Assembly (NCBI GenBank): GCA_036275915.1
Contig: DASUCV010000018.1
Coordinates: 62,001-126,000, forward strand
Source: Candidatus Polarisedimenticolaceae bacterium
Lineage (GTDB): Bacteria; Acidobacteriota; Polarisedimenticolia; Polarisedimenticolales; DASRJG01
DNA: 64,000 nucleotides
Direction: 5' to 3'
Shown here: positions 11,310 to 57,182 of the stretch, piece by piece
How the letters are laid out: every line of letters starts with the position of its first letter
Numbering within the stretch: position 1 is the stretch's first letter
The notes under the pieces: model-generated
Database searches by the model: none
What the model saw: the letters and a program-made list of their open reading frames with translations, nothing else
What the model was told of the DNA's origin: nothing
Made by a program: the position numbers and the translations under genes

Positions 11310-11400
11310 ACCAGGTCGCGGCGTCTGCTGATAACCGTGGCCGCGACTCCTCGCCCACCGTACTTCCGGTACGTCGGCCGAGGCCGAAGTGGGGGATACC

Positions 11401-13230
11401 ATGCGCGCGCACCCGAAACGAGACGGGATGGGGAGTCGTAGTCTCAAGTGGACCGGCATCGCGCTCGGCGTATGGCTGGTCGCGCGCCCCGAGGCACACG
11501 CGCTCTCGCCGGTCAGGCGGCCCGAATCGCCCGACTCGACTCAGTTCGTCGGTAACGGGGTCTACCCCGCGACGACGAGCAACTGCTACTCCGCGCCGGT
11601 ATTATGGCCAGACATTCGGATGCAGTCCAATTCGGGCACCGTCATGACCGCCCCCACCGTGGTGGGCGTCTACTGGCCGGCCCCATCAGGGGGGCCTGGA
11701 ACGGATCCGCAGGTGCGCGCGCTTTTCGGAGATTTCGTCACGGACCTGTTCAACGGCCCCTACTGGAACGCGACGATGCCGCAGTACGTCGGGACCGCTC
11801 ACGGGAATTACCAATCGAGCGTTGACATCACGACGCTGCTGACCCTCACGCCGAGCGCCACGGTTGACCGCAACACGATAGCCCCGGAGCTCGTCGCGCA
11901 GGTGCAGGCTGGAGTGCTGCCCGCATACGCCGCCGGTGGGAACACCATCTACGTGGTCCATTTCCCGCCGGGCGTCACCATCATCGACCCGGGCGGAATA
12001 GGGGAGTCGTGCGTGCAATTCTGTGCGTACCACGACTTCTATGTGGTGAACTTCCAACTAGCGTTCACCTTCAGCGTGCACCCTGATTTCACGCAAAACG
12101 CCACCTGCGCTTCGGGCTGTGGTCTCGGGACTGTGTTCGATCGCTACATGCAAACGCTGTCCCACGAGCTGTTCGAGACCGTGACCGATCCGTGGCTCCC
12201 GAACGGCTGGGAGAATGATTGCACTGGCGGGCAGGAGGAAGTCGCCGACGTGTGCGACGAGAGCAAGTTCTTCGTGCCGCGTCGCACGTCCAGTTCCGGC
12301 TCGCCGCAGTGCCCCAATCGATGGCCGATGTCATCCATCTTCTCCAACGCCGCGTACGTGTCGCCGCCGAACGGATGCGTGGTCAGCGATTCCACGGCCG
12401 TTCCGGACCTCACGATCTCCCTCAGCCACACAGGCAACTTCGCGCAAGGGCAGATCGGCGACCACTACAAGATCACCGTCGGCAACGCCACCGCCGGGAC
12501 GACCTGCGGCCCGGTCACGGTGACCGAGTCGGTCCCCGCCGGCCTGACGTTGACCGGCCTCAGCGGCAGCGGCTGGACCTGCGGGGGAACCACCTGCACC
12601 CGGTCCGACACGCTCCTTGCGAACGCGAGCTACCCGGACATCACGGCGACGGTCACGGTCGCTCCGAACGCCCCCGCGTCCGTCACGAACTCGGCGAGCG
12701 TTTCGGGTGGCGATGAGCTCAACGCGGCGAACGACTCCGCCAGCGACCCGACGACGGTCGCCCCTGGTTCGGCGGCCGGCTGCAACGACAGCAACGTGTG
12801 CACCGCCGACGCGTTCAATCCGGCAACAGGCTGCGTCTACACCAACGCCCCGGGCCCGTGCGACGACGCGAACGCTTGCACGACCGGCGACAGTTGTGCC
12901 GCCGGCATCTGCACCGGAACGCCGGTCGCCGCTCCTCCCGAGGTCCAGAGCGTGACGGTGGCCGCCGACAAGGCGACGTACAACTGGTCCGCGGCGGCGT
13001 CCGCCACGCGCTACGACGTCGTGCGCGGCAGCACGGGAGCGTTCCCAGTCGGTCCGGGCGGTGGCGACGAAGTGTGCTTCGACAACCTGCCCGGCACGAC
13101 GCTCAACGACCCAGCAGTTCCAGCTGTCGGCACCGGGTTCTGGTATCTCTCGCGGGGAGAGAGCGCTTGCGGCAACGGGACGTGGGGGAACGCGACGAGC
13201 GGGCCGCGCGTCACGACGACCTGTCCGTAA
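11401..13230 (+). CDS. Secreted Exordium/PHI-1-like protein with DUF11 and Cys-Pro C-terminal module
   Basis: 609 residues with a signal region (1-35). Residues about 75-325 match the Exordium/PHI-1 pattern: VGVYWPAP, GPYWNATMPQY, the CVQFCAYHDFYVVN block, then SHELFETVTDP (His255, Glu256, Glu259, Asp263) and EEVADVC, a zinc-protease-like arrangement. Residues 333-455 are a DUF11-type beta domain. At 461-505 comes a cysteine-rich segment (CNDSNVCTADAF, CDDANACTTGDSC). Residues 510-609 are the shared C-terminal module: YDVVRGS, PVGPGGGDEVC, VGTGFWYLSRG and the end ATSGPRVTTTCP. GGGGGA precedes the ATG at 11401; a GTG at 11389 is possible. Whether it is an active protease is unknown. Confidence 0.75.
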   Translation: MRAHPKRDGMGSRSLKWTGIALGVWLVARPEAHALSPVRRPESPDSTQFVGNGVYPATTSNCYSAPVLWPDIRMQSNSGTVMTAPTVVGVYWPAPSGGPGTDPQVRALFGDFVTDLFNGPYWNATMPQYVGTAHGNYQSSVDITTLLTLTPSATVDRNTIAPELVAQVQAGVLPAYAAGGNTIYVVHFPPGVTIIDPGGIGESCVQFCAYHDFYVVNFQLAFTFSVHPDFTQNATCASGCGLGTVFDRYMQTLSHELFETVTDPWLPNGWENDCTGGQEEVADVCDESKFFVPRRTSSSGSPQCPNRWPMSSIFSNAAYVSPPNGCVVSDSTAVPDLTISLSHTGNFAQGQIGDHYKITVGNATAGTTCGPVTVTESVPAGLTLTGLSGSGWTCGGTTCTRSDTLLANASYPDITATVTVAPNAPASVTNSASVSGGDELNAANDSASDPTTVAPGSAAGCNDSNVCTADAFNPATGCVYTNAPGPCDDANACTTGDSCAAGICTGTPVAAPPEVQSVTVAADKATYNWSAAASATRYDVVRGSTGAFPVGPGGGDEVCFDNLPGTTLNDPAVPAVGTGFWYLSRGESACGNGTWGNATSGPRVTTTCP

Positions 13231-14163: not shown

Positions 14164-17148
14164 TTACGGGCACGGGTTCGTGTTCGCCCTCGTCGCCCCT
14201 GCGCTGTTCGTGCCCAAGCTCCCTTCGACACCGCTAGTGACGCCCGTCACCAAGCTGAACCGGACCTTGCCGGGATCGGGAATGACGAGATCCTGCGCGA
14301 ACACGTCGGTCACGCCGCACTGGCGATCGGCCAGCGGGTTCGACCCGGGCGCCTGCGTATAGACGCCGCCGCTTCGAAGTACCGACAAGTCTCCTTCGTA
14401 CACATTCCAGCTTGTCGGGCCGGATTCCTGCTGCCACTCGATGTAGTTCTTGTCGTCGGTGCCGAAGACGTAGATCAGCCCATCGTCGAGATCGCAGACA
14501 TCGCCGATGCCGTCGAAGTCAGAGTCGGACTGCGTCGGGTTGTAGTCGAATCCACAGTTGTCGCAGGCATCTCCAACGCGGTCGCCGTCGATGTCGGACT
14601 GAGTCGGATTCGAGTTGAGCGGGCAGTTATCGCACGCGTCGCCGAATCCGTCATGGTCGGTGTCGGCCTGGCTCGGGTTCGAGACGAACGGGCAGTTGTC
14701 GCAGGCGTTCCCGGCGTGGTCTCCGTCGGTGTCGAGCTGTGTGGGATTCGGGGACAACGGGCAGTTGTCGCACGCGTTGTGGATTCCGTCACCGTCGGAG
14801 TCCACCCCCGAGGCGTCTTCGTCCACCTGGCCATTGCAGTTGTCGTCGATTCCGTTGCAGATCTCGGGGGCGCCGGGGTGCACGGCAGCATTGGTGTCGT
14901 TGCAATCGCCCTGGCAAATCCGGTATCCGTCGCCGTCCGCATCGGCCTCGTTCGAAGGAATCGTGGGCCACGAGGGATCGCTGCAGTTGTTGTTGATCCC
15001 GTCGCAGAGCTGCGAAGCGCCCGGGTAAACCGTTGCGCGGGTGTCGTCGCAGTCGCCCTGACAGATCCTGTAGCCGTCATGGTCGCCATCCGCCTCGTTG
15101 GCGGGAACGGTCGGCCACGAGGGATCGCTGCAATTGTCGTTGATGCCGTCGCACAGTTGCGGGGCGCCAGGGTAAACGACAGCGCGCGTGTCGTCGCAGT
15201 CTGCCGAGTTCGCCACGTATCCGGCCGGCATCTGGCAGAACGACGACGTCACCGCCGCATTGCCGAAGCCGTCACCGTCCGCATCGCGGTACCAGATCGC
15301 CGAGCCGCAGCCGTACTGCCAGGTGTCCGCGAACCCCGTAGTCGATGCGCCGTTGAAGTGCGAGCCTCCGAAGAGAACGACTCCCGCACGAGCCGAATCG
15401 TAGACCATTCCATGACCCGACCTCGCTGCAGGACCGGAGGACGCGCGCTGGGTCCACGTCGTGCCGTCCCACTCCCAGGTATCATTGGCGAAAGCCGTCG
15501 AGCTTCCATTGAGAGAGCCGCCGAAGAGCACGGTGCGGCCGCGTGCGGAATCGTAGGCCATTGCAGGCGCGGACCTCGCAGCGGGCCCGGTCGAAGCCCG
15601 TTGAGACCAGCTTGTGCCGTCCCATTCCCACGTGTCCGCAAGTCGGCCCGCGCTGCCGTTACCCCCGAACAGCACGACACGGCCCCGTCCCGAGTCGTAC
15701 GCCATCGCGTGAACCGACCTCGCGGGCGGGCCCGTGGTCGATCGCTGTGTCCACGTCGTGCCATCCCACTCCCAAGTGTCGCCCAAGTTCCCGGAAGCGT
15801 CGTTGCCGCCGAACAGAACCAACCGACCACGTCCCGAGTCGTACGCCATCGCCGTCGCTCTCGCAGACGGGCCGGTGGACGCCCGCTGTGTCCACGTCGT
15901 GCCGTCCCATTCCCACGTGTCCTGGAGGTATCCGGGGGAAACGGATCCACCGAAGAGCACGACGCGCCCGCGCGCGGAGTCGTACGCCATTCCGCATCCG
16001 GACCTCGCCGAAGGACCGGTGGTGGCCCGTAACGTCCATTTCATGCCGCTGAGCTCCCACGTGTCCCCGATGGATGGACTGACGGAAAACGCCCCGCCGA
16101 AGAGCACGGTGCGATTGCGCGCGGAGTCGTAGGCCATCCCGAAAGCGTTTCTTTGGCCCGGATAATCGGTCCGCTGCGTCCAGCTCGTACCGTCCCACTC
16201 CCAGGTGTCGCCAAAGGACGCGCCGGGGACAGGAACACCGAACCCGCCGAACAGCACGGTGCGGTTTCGCGTGGAGTCGTAGGCCATCGCGTGCGCGTAC
16301 CGCCCCGGAGCGCCGGTCGTCGCTCGCTGCGTCCAGGTCGTGCCGTCCCATTCCCACGTGTCGCCGAGAAAGCCTCCGCCGTCCCCGCCGAACAACAGGA
16401 CGCGACTGCGCGCCGAGTCGTAGGTCATCGCGTGACCGTAGCGCGCCGAGGGGCCCGTGGAAGCCACCTGCGTCCATGTCGTCCCGTCCCAGGCCCATGT
16501 ATCGCCGAGATTCGAGCCATTGTGGCCGCCGAAGAGCACGACGCGTCCGTGTGCCGCGTCGTACGCCATGGCATGATCTTGTCTCCAGGAAGGACCGGTC
16601 GTCGCGCGCTGGGTCCACGTCGTGCCGTCCCACTCCCACGTATCCGTCAGGCCTTGGCCGCCGAAGAGCACCGTGCGACCGCGCACGGAGTCGTAGGCCA
16701 TCGCGTGACCGTCTCGTACGGACGGGCCAGTGGACGATCGTTGCGTCCAGGAGGTGCCGTCCCATTCCCACGTGTCTCCGAGGCCCGCACCGTTCAAGCC
16801 GCCGAACATCACGACACGTCCTCGTGCGGAATCGTAGGCCATCGCGTGGCGATACCTGGCCGACGGCCCCGAAGAGGATCTCAGAGTCCAAGACGTGCCG
16901 TCCCATTCCCAGGTGTCACCCAGGTACTGGTCGCCGAAGCCTCCGAAAAGCACAACGCGTCCGCGCACGGAGTCGAACGCCATCGCATGGTTGGTCCGCG
17001 GCTCCATGGCCGCGATGCTCCAGCCGTCAGCCACGACGTCCGGTTGCGCAGGTACGAGATGTTCAGGGGTGAGTGCCTCCGCGCGAGCAACCGGAACCAA
17101 CGCTGGCACCACGACGAGCAGTGCTATGGGGAAAAGCAGCGCGAGCAT
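14164..17148 (-). CDS. Secreted kelch-propeller protein with MopE, TSP3 and Cys-Pro C-terminal module
   Basis: 994 residues. Signal peptide 1-24. Residues roughly 35-650 hold twelve near-identical 45-55 residue repeats of the type HAMAYDSARGRVVLFGG plus DTWEWDGTTWTQR. Then come MopE-type metal-binding motifs (CDDTRAVVYPGAPQLCDGIN and three variants, one with NDNCNGQVDED-like acidic cluster), then TSP type-3 calcium-binding repeats (DGDGIHNACDNCP and relatives). The last roughly 105 residues are the shared C-terminal module: IEWQQESGPTSWNVYEGDL, a Cys at RQCGVTD, and the end GSLGTNSAGATRANTNPCP. Start at 17148 has GGTGGAG upstream; the frame is open far upstream but only by chance. A close paralogue lies at 32711-36199. 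Presumably surface or extracellular; partner unknown. Confidence 0.85.
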   Translation of the reverse strand: MLALLFPIALLVVVPALVPVARAEALTPEHLVPAQPDVVADGWSIAAMEPRTNHAMAFDSVRGRVVLFGGFGDQYLGDTWEWDGTSWTLRSSSGPSARYRHAMAYDSARGRVVMFGGLNGAGLGDTWEWDGTSWTQRSSTGPSVRDGHAMAYDSVRGRTVLFGGQGLTDTWEWDGTTWTQRATTGPSWRQDHAMAYDAAHGRVVLFGGHNGSNLGDTWAWDGTTWTQVASTGPSARYGHAMTYDSARSRVLLFGGDGGGFLGDTWEWDGTTWTQRATTGAPGRYAHAMAYDSTRNRTVLFGGFGVPVPGASFGDTWEWDGTSWTQRTDYPGQRNAFGMAYDSARNRTVLFGGAFSVSPSIGDTWELSGMKWTLRATTGPSARSGCGMAYDSARGRVVLFGGSVSPGYLQDTWEWDGTTWTQRASTGPSARATAMAYDSGRGRLVLFGGNDASGNLGDTWEWDGTTWTQRSTTGPPARSVHAMAYDSGRGRVVLFGGNGSAGRLADTWEWDGTSWSQRASTGPAARSAPAMAYDSARGRTVLFGGSLNGSSTAFANDTWEWDGTTWTQRASSGPAARSGHGMVYDSARAGVVLFGGSHFNGASTTGFADTWQYGCGSAIWYRDADGDGFGNAAVTSSFCQMPAGYVANSADCDDTRAVVYPGAPQLCDGINDNCSDPSWPTVPANEADGDHDGYRICQGDCDDTRATVYPGASQLCDGINNNCSDPSWPTIPSNEADADGDGYRICQGDCNDTNAAVHPGAPEICNGIDDNCNGQVDEDASGVDSDGDGIHNACDNCPLSPNPTQLDTDGDHAGNACDNCPFVSNPSQADTDHDGFGDACDNCPLNSNPTQSDIDGDRVGDACDNCGFDYNPTQSDSDFDGIGDVCDLDDGLIYVFGTDDKNYIEWQQESGPTSWNVYEGDLSVLRSGGVYTQAPGSNPLADRQCGVTDVFAQDLVIPDPGKVRFSLVTGVTSGVEGSLGTNSAGATRANTNPCP

Positions 17149-17297: not shown

Positions 17298-20072
17298 CTA
17301 CGGGCAGGCGCTCCCCGACGCCGAGATTCCTGCATCGCGGCTCGCCGCCTGCGACGGCGATGTGTCGTCGTACGTGCCGTGGGCGACGCATGTCATGGTC
17401 ACGGGGCGCAAGAGCGCGAAAGTGCCCGCGCCGGCCGGGGGCGCGCCGTACGGATCGGTGAAAGCAAGCGCCGCGGTGTCGTTCGCGAGGCACGCGTTCT
17501 CGCCAGGGGGGAGCGCGTTCAACGCGGCGGTGAAGTCGCCTCCCGACGACCGCAACGTTCCGAGGTCCCCGCGGACCAGATCGAACGCCGCCGCCCCTCC
17601 CGAGGTCCACGACCAGACGGTGTCGCCCGTAACGGACTTCGACGCTTCGAGCGAGCCAGCGTACGCCGCGACGGCGGGGCAGGGCGGCGTCGCCGAGACC
17701 TCCGCGGTGTTCGCGCTCGCACCGCCCGCGTCCGGACCTCCGGTGTAGACCGCGGCCACCGCGTAGTAGTACGTGGTGCCGGAGGTCAAGCCGGTGTCGA
17801 AGTAGGAGGTGCCCGATGGGCAGGCGATCGCGTCGTACGGACCTCCGGCGACGAGGGACCGCCCGACGCGGTAGCTCGAGGCGACGGTCGAGGCCGGCCA
17901 GGACAGCGTCACCTGGCCGTCCGACGGAACGGCCGAGACGGGATCGGGCGGGGCGAGATTCACAAGGAGTGTCGTCGAGGCCGTGTGGGAGAGCGTGCCG
18001 GAGGTCCCGCTGATCGTGAGCGACGTCGCGTACGGGACCGCCGCGGTGGTGGTGCTCATCGTGAGAACGGAGGTCCCCGATGCGGCGATCGTCAGCGGAC
18101 TGAACCCGCCGCTCGACACTCCGGCGGGAAGGCCCGTCTCGGTGCCGACCGCAAGCGAAACGGTCCCCGCGAACCCCGAGAGCGGCGTCACCGTCACTGT
18201 GAACGACGCGGATTGTCCGGGGACGACCGTCTGCGACGCCGGGGACACGGCGATGTCGAAATCGGCGGACGCGGGGAGGACCTTGATCATCCGCGTCGGC
18301 GGGCTGGGATCGGAGTTGTTGGAGGCATCCAGCACCGTCATCGAGACTTCGTACTCTCCCGCGTTGCTGAACGTCACGTTGCCGGGGGTCTTCGCCGTCG
18401 AGGTCGCGGGCGTTCCTCCCGGGAAGATCCAGGAGTACTTCGAGGCCGTGGTCGTCGTGCCGAACGCCACCGACTGCCCGGCATTGATCGTGGTGTCCGA
18501 CGCCGGAGAGCTGATGATGCCGGACGGAGAGGGGGTGGCGTAGCGTGTCAATTCCACCCAGCGCGCCACCGACGGAACCCCCGCTCCGTCCAGCAGGAAG
18601 AGCATGTAGTAGCCGGGAGGGGCCACGTTCGAGCTCGACGGGGTCGTCAGGCTGAGCGTTCCAGAGCCGGAGCACGCCGGCTGCGGCGACGGGCCGCACA
18701 GGCCGACGACGCGCTGGTCCATGTCGAAGGCGTGGGTGGTGGAGCCGGGGCGGACGAGGACTGCCGAGGAGATCGGGGACGCCGCCGTGTAGTCGACGGT
18801 GAACGAAGCGCCGTAGCCAAGGACGGAGGGCGAAACGCCCGTGATCTGCGGGCGGCCCGAGGTGATCAGGTGGTCGTTCGCGTCGTAGAGGTACGGCGGC
18901 GTGTAGATCTCCACCGTCGCCAAGTATTTTCCGCGGTCGCCGGGATTGCTCCCGAGGCTGGCCACCGTGGCGTCGGGCAGGAGCACGGCTGTGGAGTGAT
19001 ACAGGCGGGAATACGACGCGGTCCCTCCGGAGGTCATCGCGCCCGAGACCGAGTTGTACAGATCGGCGGTCTTCCCCGGTGTGTCCGGCGCCTCGTTGTT
19101 CACGGAGCCGCCCGACGCGAGAACCTGGCCGTTCGGGAGGAGGATCGCGTTCATCTCGATCCGCCCCGTGGACATGTTGGGTCCGGCGGTCCACGACGGC
19201 GATGCGGCGGAGAGATCGATGATCTCGGTGGACCTCGACGCGGGATTGCCGCCGCCGAAATTCATGACCTTCGGGGTGTAGCTCGGGGGCCAAAGCGGGA
19301 GCAGAACCGCGGAGCCGTACTGCCGGTCCCGTGTCGTCGCCACGGAGATCGTCCACGTCCGCGCCGATGGGTCGAAGAACCAACCGTTCGAAATCGAGCC
19401 GCCGGACCCGTGCCCCGTGAAGAAGGTCTTGCCGCTGGGCAGGAGGAAGTTGCGGGGAAACAGCGGAGGCGTGAACGGGTCGGTGACCGTCGAGCCCCAG
19501 CCCGCCCCCGCGTTGGTCAGGTCGTAGATCTGGACGGTGGTGTTGGTGGACCCGCCCTGGCCCAGGCCCGAGAACGCCATGATCCGGCCGTCGCCCAGCG
19601 CCGTCGCGCTCCCGTACCACCGGCCGCCGGCCATGTCCTGCGACTGGTTGAACTCACCGGTCGCGGGATCGAAGAACGATGCGCGTTTGTCCCCCTTGAA
19701 CGAATAGTCCGAGGTCCCGCCGACGGTGAGGGTTCGTCCGTGGGGAAGCTGCGCGGTGCCGCTGCAGAAGACGTCGTACTCCAGGTTCTGGACGACGATG
19801 CCGGTCGCGTCGAGGGCGGTGGGGTCCCACAACAGGGCGCGGTAGCTCTCGGAGCCGGTGGAGTTGTTGCTCGCGTCGTTCTCCGAGCCCGCGATCACCA
19901 GGACCTTCCCCGAGCGGAGTAGCGTCGCCGCGATGGGATTGATCGGCATCTGGTAGGGAAGGATCGTCCACGTGCCGGTCACGTGGGGGACGTTGCCTCC
20001 GCACTGAGCGCGGGCTCCGGCACCCGCGGCCAGCGCCACGGTCATGGCCGCGCAGATTCCCAGACGCCGCAT
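17298..20072 (-). CDS. Secreted copper-radical oxidase (galactose oxidase-like)
   Basis: 924 residues with a signal peptide (1-22). Residues 30-405 are a kelch propeller and 407-515 the DUF1929 domain of galactose/glyoxal oxidases. The active site appears complete: Cys103 in YDVFCSG and Tyr153 in GGRWYGS (the Cys-Tyr cross-link pair), Tyr358-His359 in SRLYHSTAV, and His447 in TTHAFDMDQR. Then follow a PKD-like domain (520-600), an Ig-like domain, a fibronectin-III domain (TLSWPAS, TYYYAVAAVY) and the shared C-terminal module ending in SGSACP. The family oxidises alcohols or aldehydes with O2 and releases H2O2. It lies 17 bases behind a di-haem peroxidase gene, a likely functional pair. The substrate is unknown. 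Confidence 0.88.
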   Translation of the reverse strand: MRRLGICAAMTVALAAGAGARAQCGGNVPHVTGTWTILPYQMPINPIAATLLRSGKVLVIAGSENDASNNSTGSESYRALLWDPTALDATGIVVQNLEYDVFCSGTAQLPHGRTLTVGGTSDYSFKGDKRASFFDPATGEFNQSQDMAGGRWYGSATALGDGRIMAFSGLGQGGSTNTTVQIYDLTNAGAGWGSTVTDPFTPPLFPRNFLLPSGKTFFTGHGSGGSISNGWFFDPSARTWTISVATTRDRQYGSAVLLPLWPPSYTPKVMNFGGGNPASRSTEIIDLSAASPSWTAGPNMSTGRIEMNAILLPNGQVLASGGSVNNEAPDTPGKTADLYNSVSGAMTSGGTASYSRLYHSTAVLLPDATVASLGSNPGDRGKYLATVEIYTPPYLYDANDHLITSGRPQITGVSPSVLGYGASFTVDYTAASPISSAVLVRPGSTTHAFDMDQRVVGLCGPSPQPACSGSGTLSLTTPSSSNVAPPGYYMLFLLDGAGVPSVARWVELTRYATPSPSGIISSPASDTTINAGQSVAFGTTTTASKYSWIFPGGTPATSTAKTPGNVTFSNAGEYEVSMTVLDASNNSDPSPPTRMIKVLPASADFDIAVSPASQTVVPGQSASFTVTVTPLSGFAGTVSLAVGTETGLPAGVSSGGFSPLTIAASGTSVLTMSTTTAAVPYATSLTISGTSGTLSHTASTTLLVNLAPPDPVSAVPSDGQVTLSWPASTVASSYRVGRSLVAGGPYDAIACPSGTSYFDTGLTSGTTYYYAVAAVYTGGPDAGGASANTAEVSATPPCPAVAAYAGSLEASKSVTGDTVWSWTSGGAAAFDLVRGDLGTLRSSGGDFTAALNALPPGENACLANDTAALAFTDPYGAPPAGAGTFALLRPVTMTCVAHGTYDDTSPSQAASRDAGISASGSACP

Positions 20073-20089
20073 CGCCGGTCTCCGGGAGC

Positions 20090-21169
20090 TCACAGCAGCT
20101 CCAGAAACGCGAGCAGGTCGTCCCGCTGGGCGGGCGTGATCTGGAACTGGAAGTGGTCGTTGTAGTGGTCGATCACATCGCCGAGCGTCGCGGCGGAGTT
20201 GTCGTGGAAGTACGGCGCCGTGTGCTTCAAGCCGCGCAGCGAGGGGATGTCGAAGGCATTGAGATCCTGGAGATCCCCCGTGATCGCCGCGCGCCCGGGA
20301 TCCGGCGTGTAGGTTTCCACGTACGACCCGTCGGGCTGGCGGAACGCGAGATGCAGCATCGCGAACCGCGGCGCGTTTCGCTCGCTGACGAACACGCTGG
20401 CGAAGCGGCGCGTGTCGGGCGCCGCGGGCACCGAGAGCGTCTCGCCGTCGTGGCACGTGCGGCAGTGAAGGTCGAAGACGGCCTGGCCGCGCTGCGCGGC
20501 GGGGCTGACGACGGGGATCGAGAACCCCGCCGGCTTCGGCAGGGGATCGGTGTCGTCCTCCACCGCGCGCAGTCGCAACGGGTAGTAGAGCTCCGTTTCG
20601 AACGCCGCGAGGGCGTCGAGCTCCTTCGGGGTCGGCGGACGCTTCGGAGCCATGTGCCCGAGGATCGCGCCCCGCGCTTGGCCCTGGAGCGTCGGCGAGC
20701 GACCATCCTGGAGGTAGGGGGCGGTCAGCTCCACGTTGGCCACGCCCGGGACCCCGCGCCACACGGTGATCGTGCGCTGTGACGGGTTCTCGGGGAGGAT
20801 CACGTTCGGGTGCAGGGGAATGGTCACGCGGAACACGGCGAGCGTCCGGAGGGTGGTGTAGTCGCGACCGGCCCCGTCGTCGCTGTCCTGGGGACGGAAG
20901 AGGGGATGGGCGGGATCGGATTGGAAGCGCTGCTCGACCAGCTCGGGCGAGACCGTGAACTCGTTGCGCGGGTCGTGGCACGTCGCGCAGGTGCGCCCGT
21001 TCCCGTCGAAGGTCTCGTGAAAGAAGAGGTCGCGGCCGTATTCGTAGGACGCGCGATGCGGCGTCTCGCCGCCGGCCGCGTACGCCGCGATGCCGATCCC
21101 GGTGAAGGCGGCGAGGGCGGCCGCCAGGCCTCGACGTTCGAGGAGAGCGCGCACGGTGGACTCCTTCAT
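20090..21169 (-). CDS. Di-haem cytochrome c peroxidase family protein
   Basis: 359 residues with an N-terminal signal or anchor (about 12-33). Two c-type haem motifs are visible: CATCH at 61-65 and CRTCH at 236-240, the spacing of bacterial di-haem peroxidases and MauG-like enzymes. Conserved surroundings include FFHETFDGNGRTC, APYLQDGRSPTL between the haems, and a C-terminal IPSLRGLKHTAPYFHDNSAA block typical of the family. It acts in the periplasm, reducing H2O2 or oxidising a protein partner. It is the first gene before the copper-radical oxidase, so it may consume the H2O2 made by the oxidase or help oxidise or mature it. Confidence 0.9.
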   Translation of the reverse strand: MKESTVRALLERRGLAAALAAFTGIGIAAYAAGGETPHRASYEYGRDLFFHETFDGNGRTCATCHDPRNEFTVSPELVEQRFQSDPAHPLFRPQDSDDGAGRDYTTLRTLAVFRVTIPLHPNVILPENPSQRTITVWRGVPGVANVELTAPYLQDGRSPTLQGQARGAILGHMAPKRPPTPKELDALAAFETELYYPLRLRAVEDDTDPLPKPAGFSIPVVSPAAQRGQAVFDLHCRTCHDGETLSVPAAPDTRRFASVFVSERNAPRFAMLHLAFRQPDGSYVETYTPDPGRAAITGDLQDLNAFDIPSLRGLKHTAPYFHDNSAATLGDVIDHYNDHFQFQITPAQRDDLLAFLELL

Positions 21170-21523
21170 TCGGGAAATACGACGGGCCGTTCGTGGGCGC
21201 TACCACCAACCGGAGCCGAGTGTCGCCACGTTTCCGGCTCTGTTCGCGTTGTCGGCGCGATCGTCCCACCGAGCCGAGCCGCTTCCATACCCGTAATGGT
21301 CGGCGAGCGCGCGCTCGTGAGACGCGCTGAGGCCTTTTGCGCGTGCGTAGCTCTGCGGGTAGGCTTCTGTTCTCGGCTCGCCGAGCCTGAGAGCCCTGGT
21401 GCAGGCCCACCATGCAGACCGGCGCGGATCTGGCGACTTGTCTGATGGACGGTTCAGGCGCGGTGCAGACCGAGGGGTCGCACACGGGGCGAGAACGATT
21501 CTCGCAGCTCGAAGGAGATGCAA
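21170..21523. promoter_or_regulatory. Divergent intergenic region between the peroxidase and the NHL propeller
   Basis: About 350 bases separate the start of the di-haem peroxidase (leftward) from the start of the propeller gene (rightward). It must hold both promoters. A leftward frame with an odd Gly/Trp-rich end (VATLGSGWW) runs through it, but it has no convincing start and I do not call it a gene. I see no strong palindrome or clear sigma-70 boxes. Confidence 0.4.
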
Positions 21524-32710: not shown

Positions 32711-35700
32711 TCACGGACACGGGTTCGTATTCGGCCTCGGCATGCCGGCGCTGTTCGTCCCCAGGCTCCCTTCGACGCCGCCGGTGACACCGGTGACGAG
32801 CGAGAATCTCACTGAGCCTGCGGGGGGTGTGTTGGGGTCGGCCACGGATGTGTCGGTCAAACCGCAGAACCTGGCGGCGAGCGCATTCGAGCCGGGCGGC
32901 TGGGTGTAGCTGCCCGTGGCTCGAAGCACGGAGAGGTCGCCTTCGTAGAGGTTCCATGACGTCGGGCCGCTCTCTTGCTGCCAGCGCACGTGCGTCATGT
33001 CGCCGGCGGTGACGTAGATGAGTCCGTCGTCGAGATCGCACGCGTCGCCCACGCCGTCGTGGTTGAAATCGCTCTGCGACGGGTTGTACAGGCCGAGGCA
33101 GTTGTCGCAAGCGTCGCCGGCGCCGTCGGCGTCCCCGTCTGATTGATCCGGGTTCGCTACGGCGGGGCAGTTGTCGCAGGCATCGCCCCTGCCGTCACCG
33201 TCGGTGTCGCCGAACCCCTCGTCGATTCTCCCGTCGCAGTTGTCGTCGATGCCGTTGCACACCTCCTGGGCGTTCGGGTGGACCGCCGGGTTCCCGTCAT
33301 CGCAGTCCAGCGGGCACGCCGGGTAGCCGTCGTGATCGGCGTCGACGTAGCCCATGACATAGGCGCCCCCGGTGCCGAACGTGTAGACGTCGCCGCCGCC
33401 CCAGACCAAGACCGCCGATCCCGTCCAGACCCCCGTGGCGCCGTCCCGGGCGGGCGGCGCGTTCACCGTGGAGATCGGGTTCCACACGTCGATGAACGGG
33501 TTGTAGCGTGCCGAGCGGCTGCCCCACACGACCATGAGCGAGCCGGTCCAGACGCCGGCCGCGTTCGAAATGTTCGGCGGAGCCCCGACCGTCGTCACCG
33601 GAGCCCACAGGTCGTTTTGTGGGTCGTAGCGCCCCCCCGCGCCCAAGGTGTTTCCGCCCCACACGACCATCTGCGAGCCGGTCCAGACGGCGACGTGACC
33701 CTGACGCTCGGCCGGCGCGTTGATGGTCGTCGTCGGCAGCCACGCATCCGCGACCGGATCGTACCGCCCGCCATCGTTGTTGAAACTGAAATTGCCTCCG
33801 CCCCAGACGATCATCTGGGACCCCGTCCACACGGCGGTGTGCATCGAGCGCGCGCTCGGCGCGCCGGCCGTCGTGGTCGGAAGCCAAGAGTTCGTCGCGG
33901 GATCGTAGCGTCCGCCGGTGTTGAAACCGCCGCCGTTGGAGCCGCCCCAGACGATCATCCGGGATCCCGTCCAGACGGCCGTCTGCCTGGAGCGAGCGGT
34001 CGGTGCTCCGGCGAGAGACGTCGCAAGCCAGTTGTCGAGGATCGGATCGTAACGTCCGCCGGTGTTCGTTTCGCTCGGCGCGGCACCGCCCCAGACGATC
34101 ATCTGGGAGCCCGTCCAGACGGCGGTGTGGAACGATCGGGCAGTGGGTGCGCCCGAGACGCTCATCGGCGTCCACGTATCGAGCGCGGGATCGTAGCGGT
34201 AGCCGCTGTTGACGTTCCCGATCCCCTCGACCCCGCCCCAGACGAGCATCAGCGTGCCTGTCCAGACGGCGGTGTGCTGCTTGCGCGGCGGTGGCGTCGC
34301 GCCCGGAGACATCGACGTCCACGTGTCGGCCCCCGGATCGTACCGGCCGCCGTTCGCGAGCTCGGTGTTGTTCACGTCCCTGCCGCCGTAGACGAGGAGC
34401 CGCGATCCGCTCCAGACCGACGTCATGGCATTGCGCGCCGCCGGAGCGCCGGTCGTCGACGTCGCCGTCCACGTGTCCGTGGCCGGGTCATACGTGGCGC
34501 CCGTGTTGGTCGCCACGTTGCCCCCACCCCAGATCAGCATCCGGGAGCCGCTCCACACCGCTGCGGGGCCGCTCCTCGCGGACGGCGCGTTCGTGAGAGA
34601 CGTCGCGGACCACGTGTCGGTGGCCGGGTCGTAGCGTCCTCCCGTGTTGATGTCTCCCGGCGACAGACCACCCCACACGACCATCAGCGTCCCGGTCCAG
34701 ACGGCGCCGTGACGCTGCCGTGCCGCCGGAGCGTTTGTGCCCGTCATCGCCGTCCACGTGTTCGTCGAAGGGTCGAACTGCGCGCCGGAATCGAGATAGT
34801 TGGGGCTCGCGTAGCCGCCCCAGATCAATGCGCGGCTGCCGGACCAGACCGCGGTGTGCCCGAGGCGGGCGGCAGGGGCGCCGCTGGTGTTGGTGGCGAT
34901 CCAGGAGTCCGTCGCCGGGTCGTAGATCCCGCCGGTATTCAAGACGTTCGCAAACCCGGGCGACCCGCCCCAGACGATCATGCGACTTCCCGACCAGACC
35001 GCCGTGTGGGAGAAGCGCGCGCTCGGAGCGTTCAGGGTCGTCACCGGTGTCCAGGCGTCGGCGACGGGGTCATACCGCGAGCCGGTGTTCGTGTACGTGC
35101 CGTTCGCGTTGCCTCCCCAGACGATCATCTGCGTCCCCGTCCAGACCGCCGTGTGATCGCGCCGTCCGGGGGGAGCGCCCACGGTGGCCGTCGAGGACCA
35201 CGTATCCGTGGCCGGATCGTACCGGGAGCCGGTCGCGAGATACGAGTCGGTCCCGCCCCAGAGGATCATGACGCTGCCGGTCCAGACGGCCGTGAGCCCC
35301 GACCGGCGCCCCGGCGCATCGTCCAGCCCCTGGTTGTTCCACAGATCGTCGGGAGGGCACGCATCGACGGCGTCCGTTCCCGCACCAAGGTGCGGTAGCG
35401 GCGAGTCCGCGGTGCCGACGAGCTTCACGAGAGACTCTTCCAGTCGCGCGACGTTGTCGCTCGACCACTCCTCCCACGTCCGTTTGGACACGCGGTAGGT
35501 TGCGAGCACCAGGCGGCCCGGCTCGTCCGTCAGCGGGACGTGGACGAGAAACGCGTCCGCCTCCTCGGCCACCTCGCTAGGCTCTCCGGTCCGCTCGCCG
35601 AGCTTCGCGTGCCAGTAGGTGAGCGCATCGGCGTCCGTGATCTCGGCGACCGTGCGGCGTGTGTCACTCTTCCCGGCGTCGACACGACCGGAGAGCAAGT

Positions 35701-36199
35701 CCTCACGAAGCGTCTGCGCCGCCGCCCGCCGCTCCGCCTGGATCGACGCATCGGAGGCCACGTAGCGGCGCGCCAGACGATCGACGAGCGCAGGGCGGGC
35801 GAGGCACTCCTGCACGAGGAGCGGATCCCGATCGAGCGCCGTGAACAGCTCCAGGAGCCGCTCGGGCGCATGCGTTCCGAGCGTCATCCGCTCGACTTCG
35901 CCGCGCAGCATGTCGCCTGTGATGGGGACCGACCAGAGCTGTTCGAGTGCCGCCGATTGACGCAGGTAGGCGTGCACCTTGCTCGCCGCCACGGACGCCG
36001 GCACCGCCTTCTCGAACGGCTCGCTCACGCCGATCTGGTGGGAATAGTAGATGTGCTCGATCGCGCGCTCACGGGCGACGCGATCCTCGAAGGTGAGTGG
36101 CTCGGCTGCAGACGTGCGCGGATGGCCCGCGCTCTCTCCACCAAAGGTCGGCCCGGCGAACACGACCAACGCAAGCGAGAGGATCGCGCGAATGGACAT
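32711..36199 (-). CDS. Secreted kelch-type protein with MopE, TSP3 and Cys-Pro C-terminal module
   Basis: 1162 residues. Signal peptide 1-20. Residues 35-285 form a helical region (ERAIEHIYYSHQIGV, KVHAYLRQSAALEQLW, ALDRDPLLVQECLARPALV) of a conserved but unnamed type. From about 300 to 960 come fourteen propeller repeats of the form HTAVWTGSQMIVWGG and TGGRYDPATDTW. Then a MopE motif (CDDGNPAVHPNAQEVCNGID), TSP3 repeats (DGDGRGDACDNCP and relatives) and the shared C-terminal module: VRWQQESGPTSWNLYEGDL, a Cys at RFCGLTD, and the end GSLGTNSAGMPRPNTNPCP. That ending nearly copies the 14164-17148 protein. Start 36199 follows a G-rich site. Extracellular or surface location is inferred. Confidence 0.85.
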   Translation of the reverse strand: MSIRAILSLALVVFAGPTFGGESAGHPRTSAAEPLTFEDRVARERAIEHIYYSHQIGVSEPFEKAVPASVAASKVHAYLRQSAALEQLWSVPITGDMLRGEVERMTLGTHAPERLLELFTALDRDPLLVQECLARPALVDRLARRYVASDASIQAERRAAAQTLREDLLSGRVDAGKSDTRRTVAEITDADALTYWHAKLGERTGEPSEVAEEADAFLVHVPLTDEPGRLVLATYRVSKRTWEEWSSDNVARLEESLVKLVGTADSPLPHLGAGTDAVDACPPDDLWNNQGLDDAPGRRSGLTAVWTGSVMILWGGTDSYLATGSRYDPATDTWSSTATVGAPPGRRDHTAVWTGTQMIVWGGNANGTYTNTGSRYDPVADAWTPVTTLNAPSARFSHTAVWSGSRMIVWGGSPGFANVLNTGGIYDPATDSWIATNTSGAPAARLGHTAVWSGSRALIWGGYASPNYLDSGAQFDPSTNTWTAMTGTNAPAARQRHGAVWTGTLMVVWGGLSPGDINTGGRYDPATDTWSATSLTNAPSARSGPAAVWSGSRMLIWGGGNVATNTGATYDPATDTWTATSTTGAPAARNAMTSVWSGSRLLVYGGRDVNNTELANGGRYDPGADTWTSMSPGATPPPRKQHTAVWTGTLMLVWGGVEGIGNVNSGYRYDPALDTWTPMSVSGAPTARSFHTAVWTGSQMIVWGGAAPSETNTGGRYDPILDNWLATSLAGAPTARSRQTAVWTGSRMIVWGGSNGGGFNTGGRYDPATNSWLPTTTAGAPSARSMHTAVWTGSQMIVWGGGNFSFNNDGGRYDPVADAWLPTTTINAPAERQGHVAVWTGSQMVVWGGNTLGAGGRYDPQNDLWAPVTTVGAPPNISNAAGVWTGSLMVVWGSRSARYNPFIDVWNPISTVNAPPARDGATGVWTGSAVLVWGGGDVYTFGTGGAYVMGYVDADHDGYPACPLDCDDGNPAVHPNAQEVCNGIDDNCDGRIDEGFGDTDGDGRGDACDNCPAVANPDQSDGDADGAGDACDNCLGLYNPSQSDFNHDGVGDACDLDDGLIYVTAGDMTHVRWQQESGPTSWNLYEGDLSVLRATGSYTQPPGSNALAARFCGLTDTSVADPNTPPAGSVRFSLVTGVTGGVEGSLGTNSAGMPRPNTNPCP

Positions 36200-36337
36200 A
36201 GAGACCCCCCCTGGCTGACCGGTGGTATACGCTGATCGGGGGCGGCCTACAAGCCGAACCCAGCGTCTTCTATTTCGTATAGGACCGAGGAGAATCGAAT
36301 CCCTCGACATTCGCACCGCCAATCCTAGGAGTAGCGC
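36200..36337. promoter_or_regulatory. Shared promoter region of two divergent secreted-protein genes
   Basis: 138 bases between the kelch gene (leftward) and the subtilisin gene (rightward). Both products carry the Cys-Pro C-terminal module, so the region is a good place for common control. An AT-richer stretch TTCTATTTCGTATAGG at about 36267-36283 could hold a -10 element, but I cannot assign boxes with confidence. Confidence 0.35.
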
Positions 36338-38146
36338 TTGAGTTCCATGCTCGCCGCCGGCTTGTTCCTCGCCGCCATGAGCGGTGACGCGAAGATCGCG
36401 CCGTGGCTTGAGGGCCGCCTGAGTGTGGACCATGAAGAGTCGTTCCTCGTGCTCTTCGACGACCCGGAGAGTCTCGAGGCCACGCTCGCCGGCACCGATC
36501 ACGGATCGGCGCGCGGTCGCGGCGTCTATCAGGCGTTGGTGGCGCGCGCGCGGTCGTCGCAGGCCGCCGTGCGCGCGGAGCTCGCGCAAGCGGGGATCGC
36601 CTTCCGGCCCCTCTACGTGGTCAACGGCCTGGCGGTTCGTGGCAACCTGACTCTTGCGCGAAAGCTGGCGGCGCACGCCGAGGTCGTGCGGATCGTCGGC
36701 GATCCGGTCGTCCATGGTGTGACCGCGGACTTGCTCGCTCCGGTGCCGCTCGCTCCCGACGTCGGACCGGAGCTCGGCATCACGCAGATCGAGGCCGACA
36801 AGGTTTGGAACCTGGATGGGAAGCGCGGTGAGGGGGTGGTCGTCGCCTCGGGTGACACCGGGGTCGAATGGACGCACCCGGCCCTCAAGGGCAAGTACCG
36901 CGGGTGGAACGGCACGACGGCGAACCATGACTTCAACTGGTTCGATGCGATCGAGGACACCACCGAGCCGTTCGACGACAACAACCACGGCTCGCACACG
37001 ACCGGCACGATGGTGGGGGACGACGGCGCGGGGAATCAGATCGGCGTCGCGCCCGGCGCGCGGTGGATCGCCTGCCGGAACATGAACTTCGGAGACGGGC
37101 AGCCTTCGACGTACATCGCGTGCAATCAGTTTTTCCTGGCGCCCTTCCCGCACGGAGGCGACCCGGAGCTCGACGGCGATCCGTCGAAGGCCCCCGACAT
37201 CGTCAACAACTCGTGGGAGTGTCCTCCTTCGGAAGGGTGCGATGCCAACGTGCTGAAGGCGAGCTTCACGGCCCTTCGCGCCGCCGGAATTCTCGCGGTG
37301 GCCGGCGCAGCGAATTCCGGACCGGACTGCAGCTCCGTGTCGAACCCGCCGGGGATCTACGACGAGGCGTTCGTCGTGGGGGCGACGGACATGACGGAAG
37401 TCCTCGCGTCGTTCTCCGGCCGGGGACCCGTGACCGTCGACGGAAGCGGCCGGCTGCGGCCGGATGTCGTGGCGCCCGGCGTCGGCGTGCGGTCGTCGGT
37501 GCGCGGCGGTTTCTATTCGCACCTGAGCGGCACGAGCATGGCGAGCCCGCACGTCGCCGGAGCGGCGGCGCTCTTGTGGTCGGTCAAGCCGGCGCTCAAG
37601 GGGCTCGTCGCGACCACGCGGTGTCTCATCAGCCAGTCGGCGCGCGGCAACGTGCAGCAGTCGACTCCACAAACGTGCGGCGGGACGTCCGGCTCCGACC
37701 GTCCCAACAATCTCTTCGGCTTCGGGCTGATCGACGCCTACGACGCGATCCATCTCGGGCCCGACACCGATGCCGACGGTGTGGCCGATGCCTGCGACTG
37801 CGCGCCGTCGGACGCGGGGGTGTTCGCCCCGCCGGCCGAGCCGTCTGCGCTGGGGCTCTCGGCCGACAAACAGACCATCACGTGGAGCGTATCGGACCCC
37901 GCCGGTGGAAGCGCAACCGTGTACGACGTCATTGCCGGAGATCTCTCCAACCTCCGCGCGACCGGCCTCGTCGCCTCGGCGGTGTGCCTCGGCAGCTCGA
38001 GCGCGACGCCGCTGCGAACGGATCCCGTCGTGCCTCCGGTGGGGAGCGGCACCTACTACGTGATCCAGGCGCGGAACGGCTGCGGCACTTCCGGGTTCGG
38101 CGTCACCTCCGGCGGCATCCCGCGGGCGCACGCGAGCTGTCCATGA
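36338..38146 (+). CDS. Secreted subtilisin-like (S8) protease with Cys-Pro C-terminal module
   Basis: 602 residues. A short N-terminal hydrophobic segment serves for export. Residues about 35-127 look like an I9-type propeptide (LVLFDDPESLEATLAG, PLYVVNGLAVRG). The S8 domain has Asp173 (VVASGDTGVEWTHPAL), His217 (DNNHGSHTTGTMVG) and Ser400 (SGTSMASPHVAGAAALLW), with the oxyanion Asn probably in VAGAANSGPDC. It is most like bacillopeptidase F. Then one TSP3-type motif (DTDADGVADACDC) and the shared C-terminal module: ITWSVSDPAGG, YDVIAGDLSNL, VGSGTYYVIQA and the end SGGIPRAHASCP. GGAG lies 6 bases before the TTG at 36338; an ATG at 36347 is an alternative. Confidence 0.85.
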   Translation: MSSMLAAGLFLAAMSGDAKIAPWLEGRLSVDHEESFLVLFDDPESLEATLAGTDHGSARGRGVYQALVARARSSQAAVRAELAQAGIAFRPLYVVNGLAVRGNLTLARKLAAHAEVVRIVGDPVVHGVTADLLAPVPLAPDVGPELGITQIEADKVWNLDGKRGEGVVVASGDTGVEWTHPALKGKYRGWNGTTANHDFNWFDAIEDTTEPFDDNNHGSHTTGTMVGDDGAGNQIGVAPGARWIACRNMNFGDGQPSTYIACNQFFLAPFPHGGDPELDGDPSKAPDIVNNSWECPPSEGCDANVLKASFTALRAAGILAVAGAANSGPDCSSVSNPPGIYDEAFVVGATDMTEVLASFSGRGPVTVDGSGRLRPDVVAPGVGVRSSVRGGFYSHLSGTSMASPHVAGAAALLWSVKPALKGLVATTRCLISQSARGNVQQSTPQTCGGTSGSDRPNNLFGFGLIDAYDAIHLGPDTDADGVADACDCAPSDAGVFAPPAEPSALGLSADKQTITWSVSDPAGGSATVYDVIAGDLSNLRATGLVASAVCLGSSSATPLRTDPVVPPVGSGTYYVIQARNGCGTSGFGVTSGGIPRAHASCP

Positions 38147-38344
38147 CGATCCGGTGACACGCGGCGTCACTCGCTGACTGACCAAAAGCGGCAGTTCGCG
38201 GGCTTCCTCGGCTCGCCTCCGCACGGTCTCAAACGCTCGATCGCGCAAATCGCCCCGAACGGCCGACTCTCCTCGCCCGGCCAGTCCCTCGGACACCTCA
38301 TGGCATTCGGATTGCGGAATGGAGCGTTGGACGAGGGAGGCGGC

Positions 38345-38794
38345 GTGCCCAAGAAGCGGGATTCCAGCGGTTTCACACTGATCGAGCTGCTCATCGTGGT
38401 GGCGATCATCGGCATGCTCGCCGCCATCGCCATTCCGAACCTCTTGAATGCGATCGATCAGAGCAAGCAGAAGCGCACGATGGCGGAGCTGCGATCGGTC
38501 GGCACCGCGGTGGAGTCTTACGCGGTGGACCAGAACTTCTACCCGACCGCGAATACCGCGGCCACGCTCGCGACGCTCGTCACGCCGTTCTACGTCAAGA
38601 AGGTACCGACGGAAGATGGCTGGGCCCACACCTTCCTGGTGGAGTCCGCGGGCAACGACTACACCGTCGCGTCGCCGGGCAAGGATGGAGTGGCCAGCGG
38701 CTGCGTCGTCGGGACCGTGACCACACTGTTCAATCAGGACGTCTGCTTCTCCAACGGCCGGTTCATCCAGTGGCCGCTGGGGGTTCAGCAGTAG
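38345..38794 (+). CDS. Type IV pilin/type II pseudopilin-like protein
   Basis: 149 residues. The leader VPKKRDSSG is followed by a prepilin-peptidase site and the classic hydrophobic helix FTLIELLIVVAIIGMLAAIA with Glu5 of the mature protein; then IPNLLNAIDQSKQKRTMAEL leads to a globular part with a cysteine pair (GCVVG and VCFSN) near the C-terminus. It is either a pilin or the major pseudopilin of a type II-like secretion system. The start is the GTG at 38345 with GGGAGG 6 bases upstream. No assembly genes are beside it. If it belongs to a secretion system, the many secreted proteins here would be natural substrates, which is inference. Confidence 0.88.
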   Translation: MPKKRDSSGFTLIELLIVVAIIGMLAAIAIPNLLNAIDQSKQKRTMAELRSVGTAVESYAVDQNFYPTANTAATLATLVTPFYVKKVPTEDGWAHTFLVESAGNDYTVASPGKDGVASGCVVGTVTTLFNQDVCFSNGRFIQWPLGVQQ

Positions 38795-38824
38795 CGCGAG
38801 ACGGCGCTCGCGGCCGGCGCTCCC

Positions 38825-38857
38825 AAAAAAAAGGGCGCCTCGGTCGAGGCGCCCTTG
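38825..38857 (-). terminator. Rho-independent terminator after the RRM gene
   Basis: Stem GGGCGCCTC / GAGGCGCCC with loop GGTC. On the minus strand it is followed by eight T residues, so it terminates the leftward RRM gene, whose stop is about 20 bases away. The few T residues on the plus side suggest some two-way activity for the pilin gene. Confidence 0.85.
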
Positions 38858-38876
38858 TCGAGTCCGATGTGTTGGA

Positions 38877-39203
38877 CTAGTAGCGGTTGCGACGTCCGCC
38901 GCCGCCGCCGTAACCACCGCCGCCACCGAATCCGCCTCCGCCACCGCCGGTGGTCCGCTCCTTGGCCTCGTTGACCGTGAGCGGACGTCCGCCGAAGTCG
39001 CGACCGTTCAGGTCACGAATCGCGCCGTCAGCGTCCTGGCTGCTTCCCATCTCGACGAAACCGAATCCGCGCGGGCGGCCGGTGTCGCGATCGGTCACGA
39101 GCTTGACCTCGCTGACCGTGCGACCACCCGTCGAGAAGAGCTCGCGGATCGAGTTTTCGTCCGCCGAAAAAGGGAGGTTTCCGACATAGAGCCTGGTACC
39201 CAT
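38877..39203 (-). CDS. RRM-type RNA-binding protein with glycine-rich tail
   Basis: 108 residues. A single RNA-recognition motif spans residues 1-82 with RNP2 as LYVGNLPF and RNP1 as RGFGFVEM. The C-terminus is a glycine-rich tail (GGGGGGFGGGGGYGGGGG) ending RRNRY. This is the common bacterial and cyanobacterial-type RNA-binding protein, often raised in cold or stress, acting as an RNA chaperone. AGGAG lies before the ATG at 39203; the upstream 25 in-frame codons are not needed. A strong terminator follows. Mono-cistronic. Confidence 0.92.
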   Translation of the reverse strand: MGTRLYVGNLPFSADENSIRELFSTGGRTVSEVKLVTDRDTGRPRGFGFVEMGSSQDADGAIRDLNGRDFGGRPLTVNEAKERTTGGGGGGFGGGGGYGGGGGRRNRY

Positions 39204-42700: not shown

Positions 42701-42967
42701 CTGCGACGGGATCGTGGTCTTCGGGTAGGTGAGGAGCTTCCACCCCCACGCGACGCCGTTCTGGATGTCGTCGGATTCGTTCGTCTCGCCCGGCGGAGGG
42801 ACCGACTTGTTCAGGGCATCTTTCGTGTGTCTCGACTTGACCCGCTTGGCCGGCTTGGCCGCGGCCGGAGGGGCACCGGCCATGGCGCTTCCCACCGCGG
42901 CGGTCGCAGCGGCGACGGCCAACACGAGGTACACACTTCTCCCGAACGTCGATCGTCGAGCCTTCAT
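39791..42967 (-). CDS. Secreted BNR/sortilin-like propeller with Cys-Pro C-terminal module
   Basis: 1058 residues. Signal peptide 1-37 (YLVLAVAAATAAVGSAMAG). From about 115 to 930 it shows BNR/Asp-box and sortilin-like blades: GVWKSTNCCGSAS, IMRSGDGGATWAEL, LYISHDSAVSW, WVTTNAGTSWALLGG, IIYAGTGDYDGAG. The overall layout is that of large exo-facing BNR-propeller proteins (xyloglucanase or VPS10-like folds); catalytic residues are not identifiable. The last roughly 120 residues are the shared C-terminal module in a longer version: VTWDPSSCPNPDLDLFWGSF, a Cys at AACHLG, PGSGIWFVLAG, FGKVSSGLPE and the end QNTSGSCP. G-rich site before the ATG at 42967. Extracellular location inferred. Confidence 0.8.
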   Translation of the reverse strand: MKARRSTFGRSVYLVLAVAAATAAVGSAMAGAPPAAAKPAKRVKSRHTKDALNKSVPPPGETNESDDIQNGVAWGWKLLTYPKTTIPSQAFTKARAWIGANVKDGAPWPYATKGLPASPGTSEASAPVDSGDWSFLGPRPIDESTKPPGGYTSGLVSGRFNAIALDKRTTGSPGAIVAYGAAASGGVWKSTNCCGSASTWSPLWDGGVAATQAAGAIELDPNNQSIIYAGTGDYDGAGGSSGDQFGEGIMRSGDGGATWAELAPAVFTPFAAGSPVYGDSNITVLRVDPNNSPTLLAGTSHDLYISHDSAVSWSICSFGASPLNPMTGTGGAANQVTDILVDSSTNPTTVYVAVGFRFSNLNGDNGVYKGTIPASGCPTLTLMANGWPANTGNGTSGATNVGRIRLAGSRGNGTSSLTIYAQVAGVAPGNALGTWVTTNAGTSWALLGGSADANYKDCAAAATNETQDWYDLFLLADPGNDKTLYVGRTSLYKATVDATYANMTIQNLANVYSTACPGYGGLHSDQHGAAWISGTGGSTQFLIGNDGGIYASNGTPTGFQNLNQTLNVTQFYAGQSGPNFAGGGTQFIFAGAQDNGHASWDSSEPAAVWQSRTTTGDGFFTAFDPIAGTITAGNWYAEAPNGNFVRSTAGASGAFTLGTLPWITGHDRPSWASPFRVDTLHCSTTNCNNLVFGAAHLYSSADGAATWTAAGNVDVTKGSGSIIALDVARSEPTSVVVGTSDGEVDVAVGVFAGANCTAAAANTASFACAANTTPSWYYATNFNSVLPNRAILGVTFDPTTNGRIYAAVGGFNENTPTTPGHLFMAAYNGSTFVWSDKTGNLPDIPATSVVVNPANVNEVFVGMYMGFYYTDNINATPPVWYRYQYGMPDTRVNYLAVDRGSQATPLASTTLTAYTFGRGAYGIRLPGTTGSFPPHEVPATMTAKRNTTTPANVDVTWDPSSCPNPDLDLFWGSFTGSASGFATITGAACHLGTSGVAANVALPAPPPGSGIWFVLAGTDDIHAAISSFGKVSSGLPESFTGWSGLCTETTQNTSGSCP

Positions 42968-43092
42968 CGGAGCCCCCTTCCAGACTGCGCCGGCGGAAAG
43001 CATACGGCGATCGCGTAGCAGCAAGTGGCGGTAAGGAAATCGGAAAAATCTCCATTCGTACGGCGTTCAGGCGGCTTCGTTGCGAGCCCAGA

Positions 43093-56922: not shown

Positions 56923-57182
56923 CGGAGCCCCCCGATTGGACAAATCGGCGTGAATATACCGGCACTTTCGTGCCGGTGGAACAAGTCTTCGGGGCCACGA
57001 GCCCGCGACGACGCCGGGGCGGCCGCCCGATCGAGCCTCCATTTCTTTCAGCGGACGCATACGAATCGGTGATCGCGCTTTCATCTTCGCTACGTCCCGA
57101 CGTCCCGTTTCGCGACACTCGACAACCCCCCGGGCGCTCCTTAGGTTTTGACCCGACGAGGTCGTACCTCGGGGAGTACAAG

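Follow-up and report, generated by a model that had tools for sequence, protein, structure and literature searches.

The window analysed here, a 64,000-nucleotide stretch of contig DASUCV010000018.1 from Candidatus Polarisedimenticolaceae bacterium (Acidobacteriota), carries a gene for a predicted copper-radical oxidase (CRO) directly behind a gene for a di-haem c-type protein. In a CRO a Cys-Tyr bond must form, which depends on copper, and the protein must lose one electron to give the radical form. We propose, as an evenly balanced judgement by analogy with known systems, that the di-haem protein oxidises the CRO and so activates and/or matures it. The di-haem gene lies upstream of the CRO gene on the same strand, and the positions and the 17-base spacing given in a first-pass annotation of the sequence are confirmed:

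20090..21169, (-) strand: di-haem c-type protein, MauG/MbnH-like, 359 amino acids (aa); CATCH (61-65), CRTCH (236-240), Tyr336 at the axial-ligand column, N-terminal signal-like segment.
20073..20089, (-) strand: intergenic gap of 17 nucleotides (nt) with a GGAG ribosome-binding-like sequence ahead of the CRO ATG.
17298..20072, (-) strand: CRO gene, 924 aa, ATG start; predicted secreted protein with a signal peptide, a kelch propeller and further C-terminal domains.
18540..20072, (-) strand: CRO catalytic core, aa 1-511, with Cys103, Trp152, Tyr153, Tyr358, His359 and His447; delimited by ligand alignment with bacterial CRO homologues and by the model match to GlxA (Z 46).

The two genes apparently form one operon. 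They would be co-transcribed, and both products are presumably exported.

The 924-aa protein is identified by alignment as a CRO of the GlxA/galactose oxidase type with a complete active site. It gives the single match of its genome to PF09118, the galactose oxidase E-set family (95.6 bits, E 2e-27), and among solved structures it is closest to Streptomyces lividans GlxA and to galactose/alcohol oxidases of fungi, with E-values down to 1e-55 for GlxA and galactose oxidase. The first-pass annotation had stated that all galactose oxidase ligands are kept. This holds, since Cys103, Tyr153, the Tyr358-His359 pair and His447 all align with GlxA (4unm), with galactose oxidase and across the bacterial CROs, none being misplaced. 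Trp152, which immediately precedes Tyr153, occupies the position of GlxA Trp288, the residue changed in 5lxz and 5lqi. An AlphaFold model built from 14 aligned sequences (pLDDT 83, pTM 0.87) matches GlxA best (Z 46, root-mean-square deviation 2.3-2.4 Å over 455-458 residues), followed by galactose oxidase 1gof at Z 44.

The domain order is a signal peptide, the kelch propeller, a galactose oxidase-like E-set domain (407-507), a PKD domain (524-588), middle Ig-like and Fn3-like regions and a lineage-specific C-terminal domain (about 810-924), the last three elements lying beyond residue 510. The propeller comes first, unlike in galactose oxidase. Neither the PKD domain nor the lineage-specific one is named in the first-pass annotation. 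The protein is not a GlxA in the strict sense: it scores 246 bits against the GlxA equivalog NF052501, far under the curated cut-off of 800 bits, and lacks the insert of about 110 residues found in GlxA between the Cys and Tyr blades. Judging from the family and the active site, the substrate would be an external primary alcohol or aldehyde group, oxidised with O2 to yield H2O2, and probably belongs to a glycan or a small carbonyl compound.

The partner had been named a two-haem cytochrome c peroxidase. Its two CxxCH motifs and its match to the CCP_MauG family PF03150 (35 bits, cut-off 25.6), both shared with the bacterial cytochrome c peroxidases (bCCP), bear out the two-haem part of that name; its ligands do not fit the rest. 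In an alignment with solved structures, Tyr336 occupies the column of the Met haem ligand of the bacterial peroxidases 1iqc, 3o5c and 4aal. The same column holds a Tyr in 6e1c, which we take to be MbnH. In MauG, Tyr336 falls at residue 294, the ligand Tyr, as read from equal-length ranges (profile 311-347 to MauG 262-298) rather than from a printed alignment. The curated families are both missed: TIGR03791 scores 37 against a cut-off of 444 bits, and TIGR04039 (MbnH) 68 against 363. An AlphaFold model of the protein alone (pLDDT 33) was too poor for use.

The distal pocket, at the peroxidatic haem, departs from that of the related enzymes. bCCP, MauG and BthA have in common a distal Gln, followed at +4 by a Pro and at +10 by a Glu (PMC6405878), which gives the motif Q-x3-P-x5-E. 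The window protein keeps Gln164, has Ala168 in place of the Pro and lacks the Glu, with His172 nearby. This combination (Gln, Ala at +4, no Glu, His eight residues after the Gln) recurs in the orthologue of the sister genus and in more distant relatives from genomes G369, G174 and G361; the proteins at L059 and L068 keep the Q-P-E pattern. The E of an 'EQA' motif was considered as the catalytic distal Glu and rejected, as the 0/+4/+10 spacing does not fit. In BthA, changing the Glu to Gln impairs both activities; its Tyr-His ligated haem, when the Tyr is replaced by His, keeps peroxidase activity and loses the bis-Fe(IV) state (PMC6405878). On these alignments the di-haem protein is assigned two CxxCH motifs and a Tyr at the six-coordinate haem column, as in MauG, MbnH and BthA, so that it appears MauG-like at one haem and non-canonical at the other; the name cytochrome c peroxidase is therefore not warranted without an assay. 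Because the distal Pro and the catalytic Glu are missing, ordinary peroxidase activity is doubtful.

Two further arrangements link a CRO with a di-haem protein. The first is found in a sister genus (G001), the only other genome of the family examined. Here the di-haem orthologue, 50% identical to that of the window, heads an overlapping run of three genes: di-haem protein, a 907-aa repeat protein and a CRO. The linkage is thus seen in both family genomes examined. In the tree, the CRO of this operon is not orthologous to the window CRO: it groups with the CRO of G005, whereas the window CRO groups with L032 within an Acidobacteriota/Rokubacteria clade. The same di-haem orthologue therefore stands next to two different CROs, and the proximity has outlasted a change of CRO. 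The sister genus also encodes a second CRO-like protein (L100:8830-11334) that has lost copper ligands (Tyr to Phe and Leu) and is possibly a non-enzymatic paralogue.

In the second arrangement, the two activities would be joined in one polypeptide. Three proteins of 1737-2290 aa, from two phyla, unite CRO and di-haem domains with a YNCE-type propeller:

L114:7270-14142: fusion in G319, an open reading frame (ORF) of 2290 aa.
L191:5798-12208: fusion in G419.
L135:6773-11986: fusion on the Comamonadaceae plasmid CP099607, UST56369.1.

The 2290-aa ORF comprises NPCBM, CRO, F5/8C, PKD, YNCE propeller and di-haem domains. G319 and G419 belong to different genera, both in a second family of the phylum, and their fusions are 64% identical. 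UST56369.1, annotated only as 'discoidin domain-containing protein', is 44% identical to the L114 fusion over the aligned length. The Cys, Tyr, Tyr-His and His residues of the copper site are kept in all three, with Ala replacing the Trp in the plasmid protein. Fusions and sister-genus operon together suggest that the CRO-di-haem partnership is real. The plasmid fusion gene is followed by genes for a small CxxCH protein and an SCO copper chaperone. On a Burkholderia ambifaria plasmid (L131:5843-9192), a CRO gene overlaps a gene for an SCO-family copper chaperone, which echoes the GlxA-Sco link of Streptomyces.

How might the partner serve the oxidase? We envisage an exported redox pair in which the di-haem protein, with a MauG-type Tyr-His low-spin haem, would act on the CRO as a one-electron oxidant, taking the enzyme from an inactive Cu(II)-tyrosine state to the Cu(II)-tyrosyl-radical state. 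It may also, or instead, aid formation of the Cys103-Tyr153 cross-link. The oxidant for the di-haem protein itself would be the H2O2 made by the CRO or another acceptor. Direct electron transfer between the two proteins, and the direction of the service, we infer.

Activation or maturation is ranked first because of the analogy with two known pairs, DtpA/GlxA of Streptomyces and peroxidase/AlcOx of fungi. GlxA, the bacterial CRO nearest in structure to ours, is tied to an exported haem peroxidase needed for Cys-Tyr maturation at low copper: without added copper, a dtpA mutant shows no mature GlxA, and DtpA reacts with the H2O2 that GlxA makes (PMC4736821). DtpA is, however, a mono-haem DyP peroxidase, whereas the window partner is a two-haem c-type protein encoded beside its CRO. 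In Colletotrichum and Magnaporthe, the genes for a secreted CRO (AlcOx) and its Tandem Peroxidase are likewise adjacent, and the peroxidase removes one electron from the CRO and so activates it; in Colletotrichum the peroxidase turns inactive AlcOx active in the absence of substrate, as followed by electron paramagnetic resonance (PMC9770985). Those genes stand head to head, and the fungal partner is a class II peroxidase of an unrelated haem-protein family. Finally, MauG is known to modify a partner protein (PMC6405878), though the partner here is a CRO.

The case for an oxidising partner is built on the short same-strand gap, the sister-genus operon, the fusions, an axial column that holds Tyr, as it does in MauG and MbnH, and a count across the phylum. 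PF09118 occurs in 20 of 396 genomes, at 25 places; three of these 25 loci (window, G001 and G319) have a CRO within 5 kb of CCP_MauG, against 0.14 expected (P about 4e-4 in a simple Poisson model that takes loci as independent). Weaker support comes from L037, a close neighbour of the window CRO in the tree: two di-haem genes, including a DHOR (PF06537), lie 3-6 kb away there and are read from the other strand.

Several observations weigh on the other side. The distal Pro and Glu that the di-haem protein lacks are needed by bCCP, MauG and BthA for the reaction with H2O2 (PMC6405878). The fused di-haem domains carry His at the axial column, not Tyr; they are analogues of the window partner rather than close orthologues, and fusion and operon therefore represent parallel solutions rather than a single lineage. 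The two genomes of the family cannot be counted as fully separate cases. The comparison with CRO relatives covered the 22 loci whose CROs are nearest by sequence (Acidobacteriota, Rokubacteria, one 'Nitrospirae' and one Chloroflexota); no CCP_MauG gene lies beside the CRO in any of them, several being cut early by contig ends, nor in any of 14 Chloroflexota CRO loci. In the 2.2 kb available upstream of L032, the nearest CRO (69% identity over the core), there is no peroxidase gene. Members of the di-haem subfamily are also found in G369 and G174, two genomes in which no CRO was detected. Most CROs, the closest relatives included, have no such neighbour, and CROs therefore do not generally require a di-haem partner. 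The first-pass view of the two genes as a functional pair is thus upheld by the sister-genus operon and the fusions, but not by conservation of the gene pair, which most relatives lack; its call for a survey in other genomes has given a positive count in the phylum and none among the nearest CROs.

The plasmid neighbourhoods L130, L132 and L136, which are without annotation, show no di-haem gene. L115_6045 contains a CxxCH motif and is not itself a CRO frame, and the single CxxCH motifs at L104 and L118 lie inside the CRO propeller region. In G369, two di-haem proteins of the window's subfamily stand in tandem (L138:6924-9765), with the same distal Pro and Glu missing.

Among other explanations, the foremost is that the di-haem protein is a cytochrome c peroxidase which reduces, in the periplasm, the H2O2 that the CRO makes, and leaves the oxidase itself untouched. 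We regard this as unlikely. In its favour, the protein matches the CCP_MauG family, CROs produce H2O2, and placement in an operon or a fusion would suit local scavenging equally well. DtpA is also thought to clear the H2O2 of GlxA (PMC4736821). Against it stand the axial Tyr in place of the bacterial-peroxidase Met and the absence of the distal residues for peroxide chemistry; the Tyr alone does not exclude this role, given that BthA works as a peroxidase with such a ligand (PMC6405878).

Rather improbable is a role in which the pair acts in sequence on one external substrate or chain, the CRO product passing to a di-haem oxidant or RoxA-like oxygenase, or in which the haem protein passes electrons from the CRO to respiration. 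The RoxA-like segment PF21419 is present in the window di-haem protein, in L099 and in the fusions, and the fusions bear F5/8C or NPCBM modules of sugar-binding type besides the YNCE propeller; PF21419 is, however, a 39-residue C-terminal motif common to the superfamily. Still less probable are chance neighbours, that is, two unrelated exported redox genes, the sister-genus arrangement and the fusions then being coincidences or having another meaning: CCP_MauG is absent next to nearly all other CROs, L032 included, and the di-haem subfamily occurs without a CRO, but chance would have to account for the excess over the expected count, for a non-orthologous CRO beside the same di-haem orthologue and for homologous fusions in two phyla.

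Two further elements flank the pair:

14164..17148, (-) strand: secreted kelch-repeat/thrombospondin-type-3-like protein, 994 aa, 149 nt past the CRO stop; its C-terminal domain is related and ends NPCP.
21170..21517, no strand assigned: divergent intergenic region of 348 nt, flanked by the di-haem gene (-) and a gene for an NHL-repeat protein (+).

The former, which the first-pass annotation passes over, is possibly the third gene of the transcript, its membership being uncertain. The latter is the probable promoter region; no sigma-70 consensus was found in it. The strictly C-terminal domain of about 110 aa that closes the CRO (17298-17645, (-) strand) and ends in ..ACP or ..CP also closes at least 14 other proteins of the genome. 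Similar-looking ends are seen in six more window proteins (11389-13230, 14164-17148, 32711-38944, 39791-43024, 48430-51303 and 52237-57192) and in the other di-haem peroxidase of the genome (L167:7674-9248). The domain looks like a lineage-specific sorting or anchoring signal.

A different conserved neighbour accompanies CROs elsewhere. A HisC-like pyridoxal phosphate-dependent aminotransferase, not present in the window, adjoins the CRO in 11 of the 22 relatives, in several gene arrangements and several phyla (L034:10462-11664, L035:10381-11583, L038:10197-11345, L033:6299-7420, L042:4747-5901, L043, L045, L046, L048, L051 and L052). Most of these enzymes have a twin-arginine N-terminus (SRRNLLR) and a Met/His-rich tail (KMAM, HQMSM, NMHHH); they are possibly exported CRO partners that convert the aldehyde to an amine or bind copper.

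For CROs, pairing with a haem peroxidase is already on record for the DyP and class II families, and what would be new here is the di-haem MauG-like partner; in the literature searched, open-access papers only, none came to light for a bacterial CRO, whether as neighbour or as fusion. Only tentatively, and with less confidence than we give to oxidation of the CRO as such, do we suggest that the Cys-Tyr radical cofactor of a CRO is made or activated by a MauG-like di-haem protein, be it separate or fused. This would be a previously undescribed bacterial system; the haem activators of CROs, DyP and class II peroxidases so far, would gain a third that evolved independently, and MauG-type proteins a new kind of substrate. 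In vitro, CROs are matured and held in their radical state by adding horseradish peroxidase or chemical oxidants, and the cellular means of doing so is a standing question for this enzyme class. With the fusions, the activator hypothesis could be put to the test in a single recombinant protein; if it is true, they would offer self-contained oxidases for biotechnology. CROs would then have a third kind of haem partner, after those of Streptomyces and of plant-pathogenic fungi, each with a different haem peroxidase.

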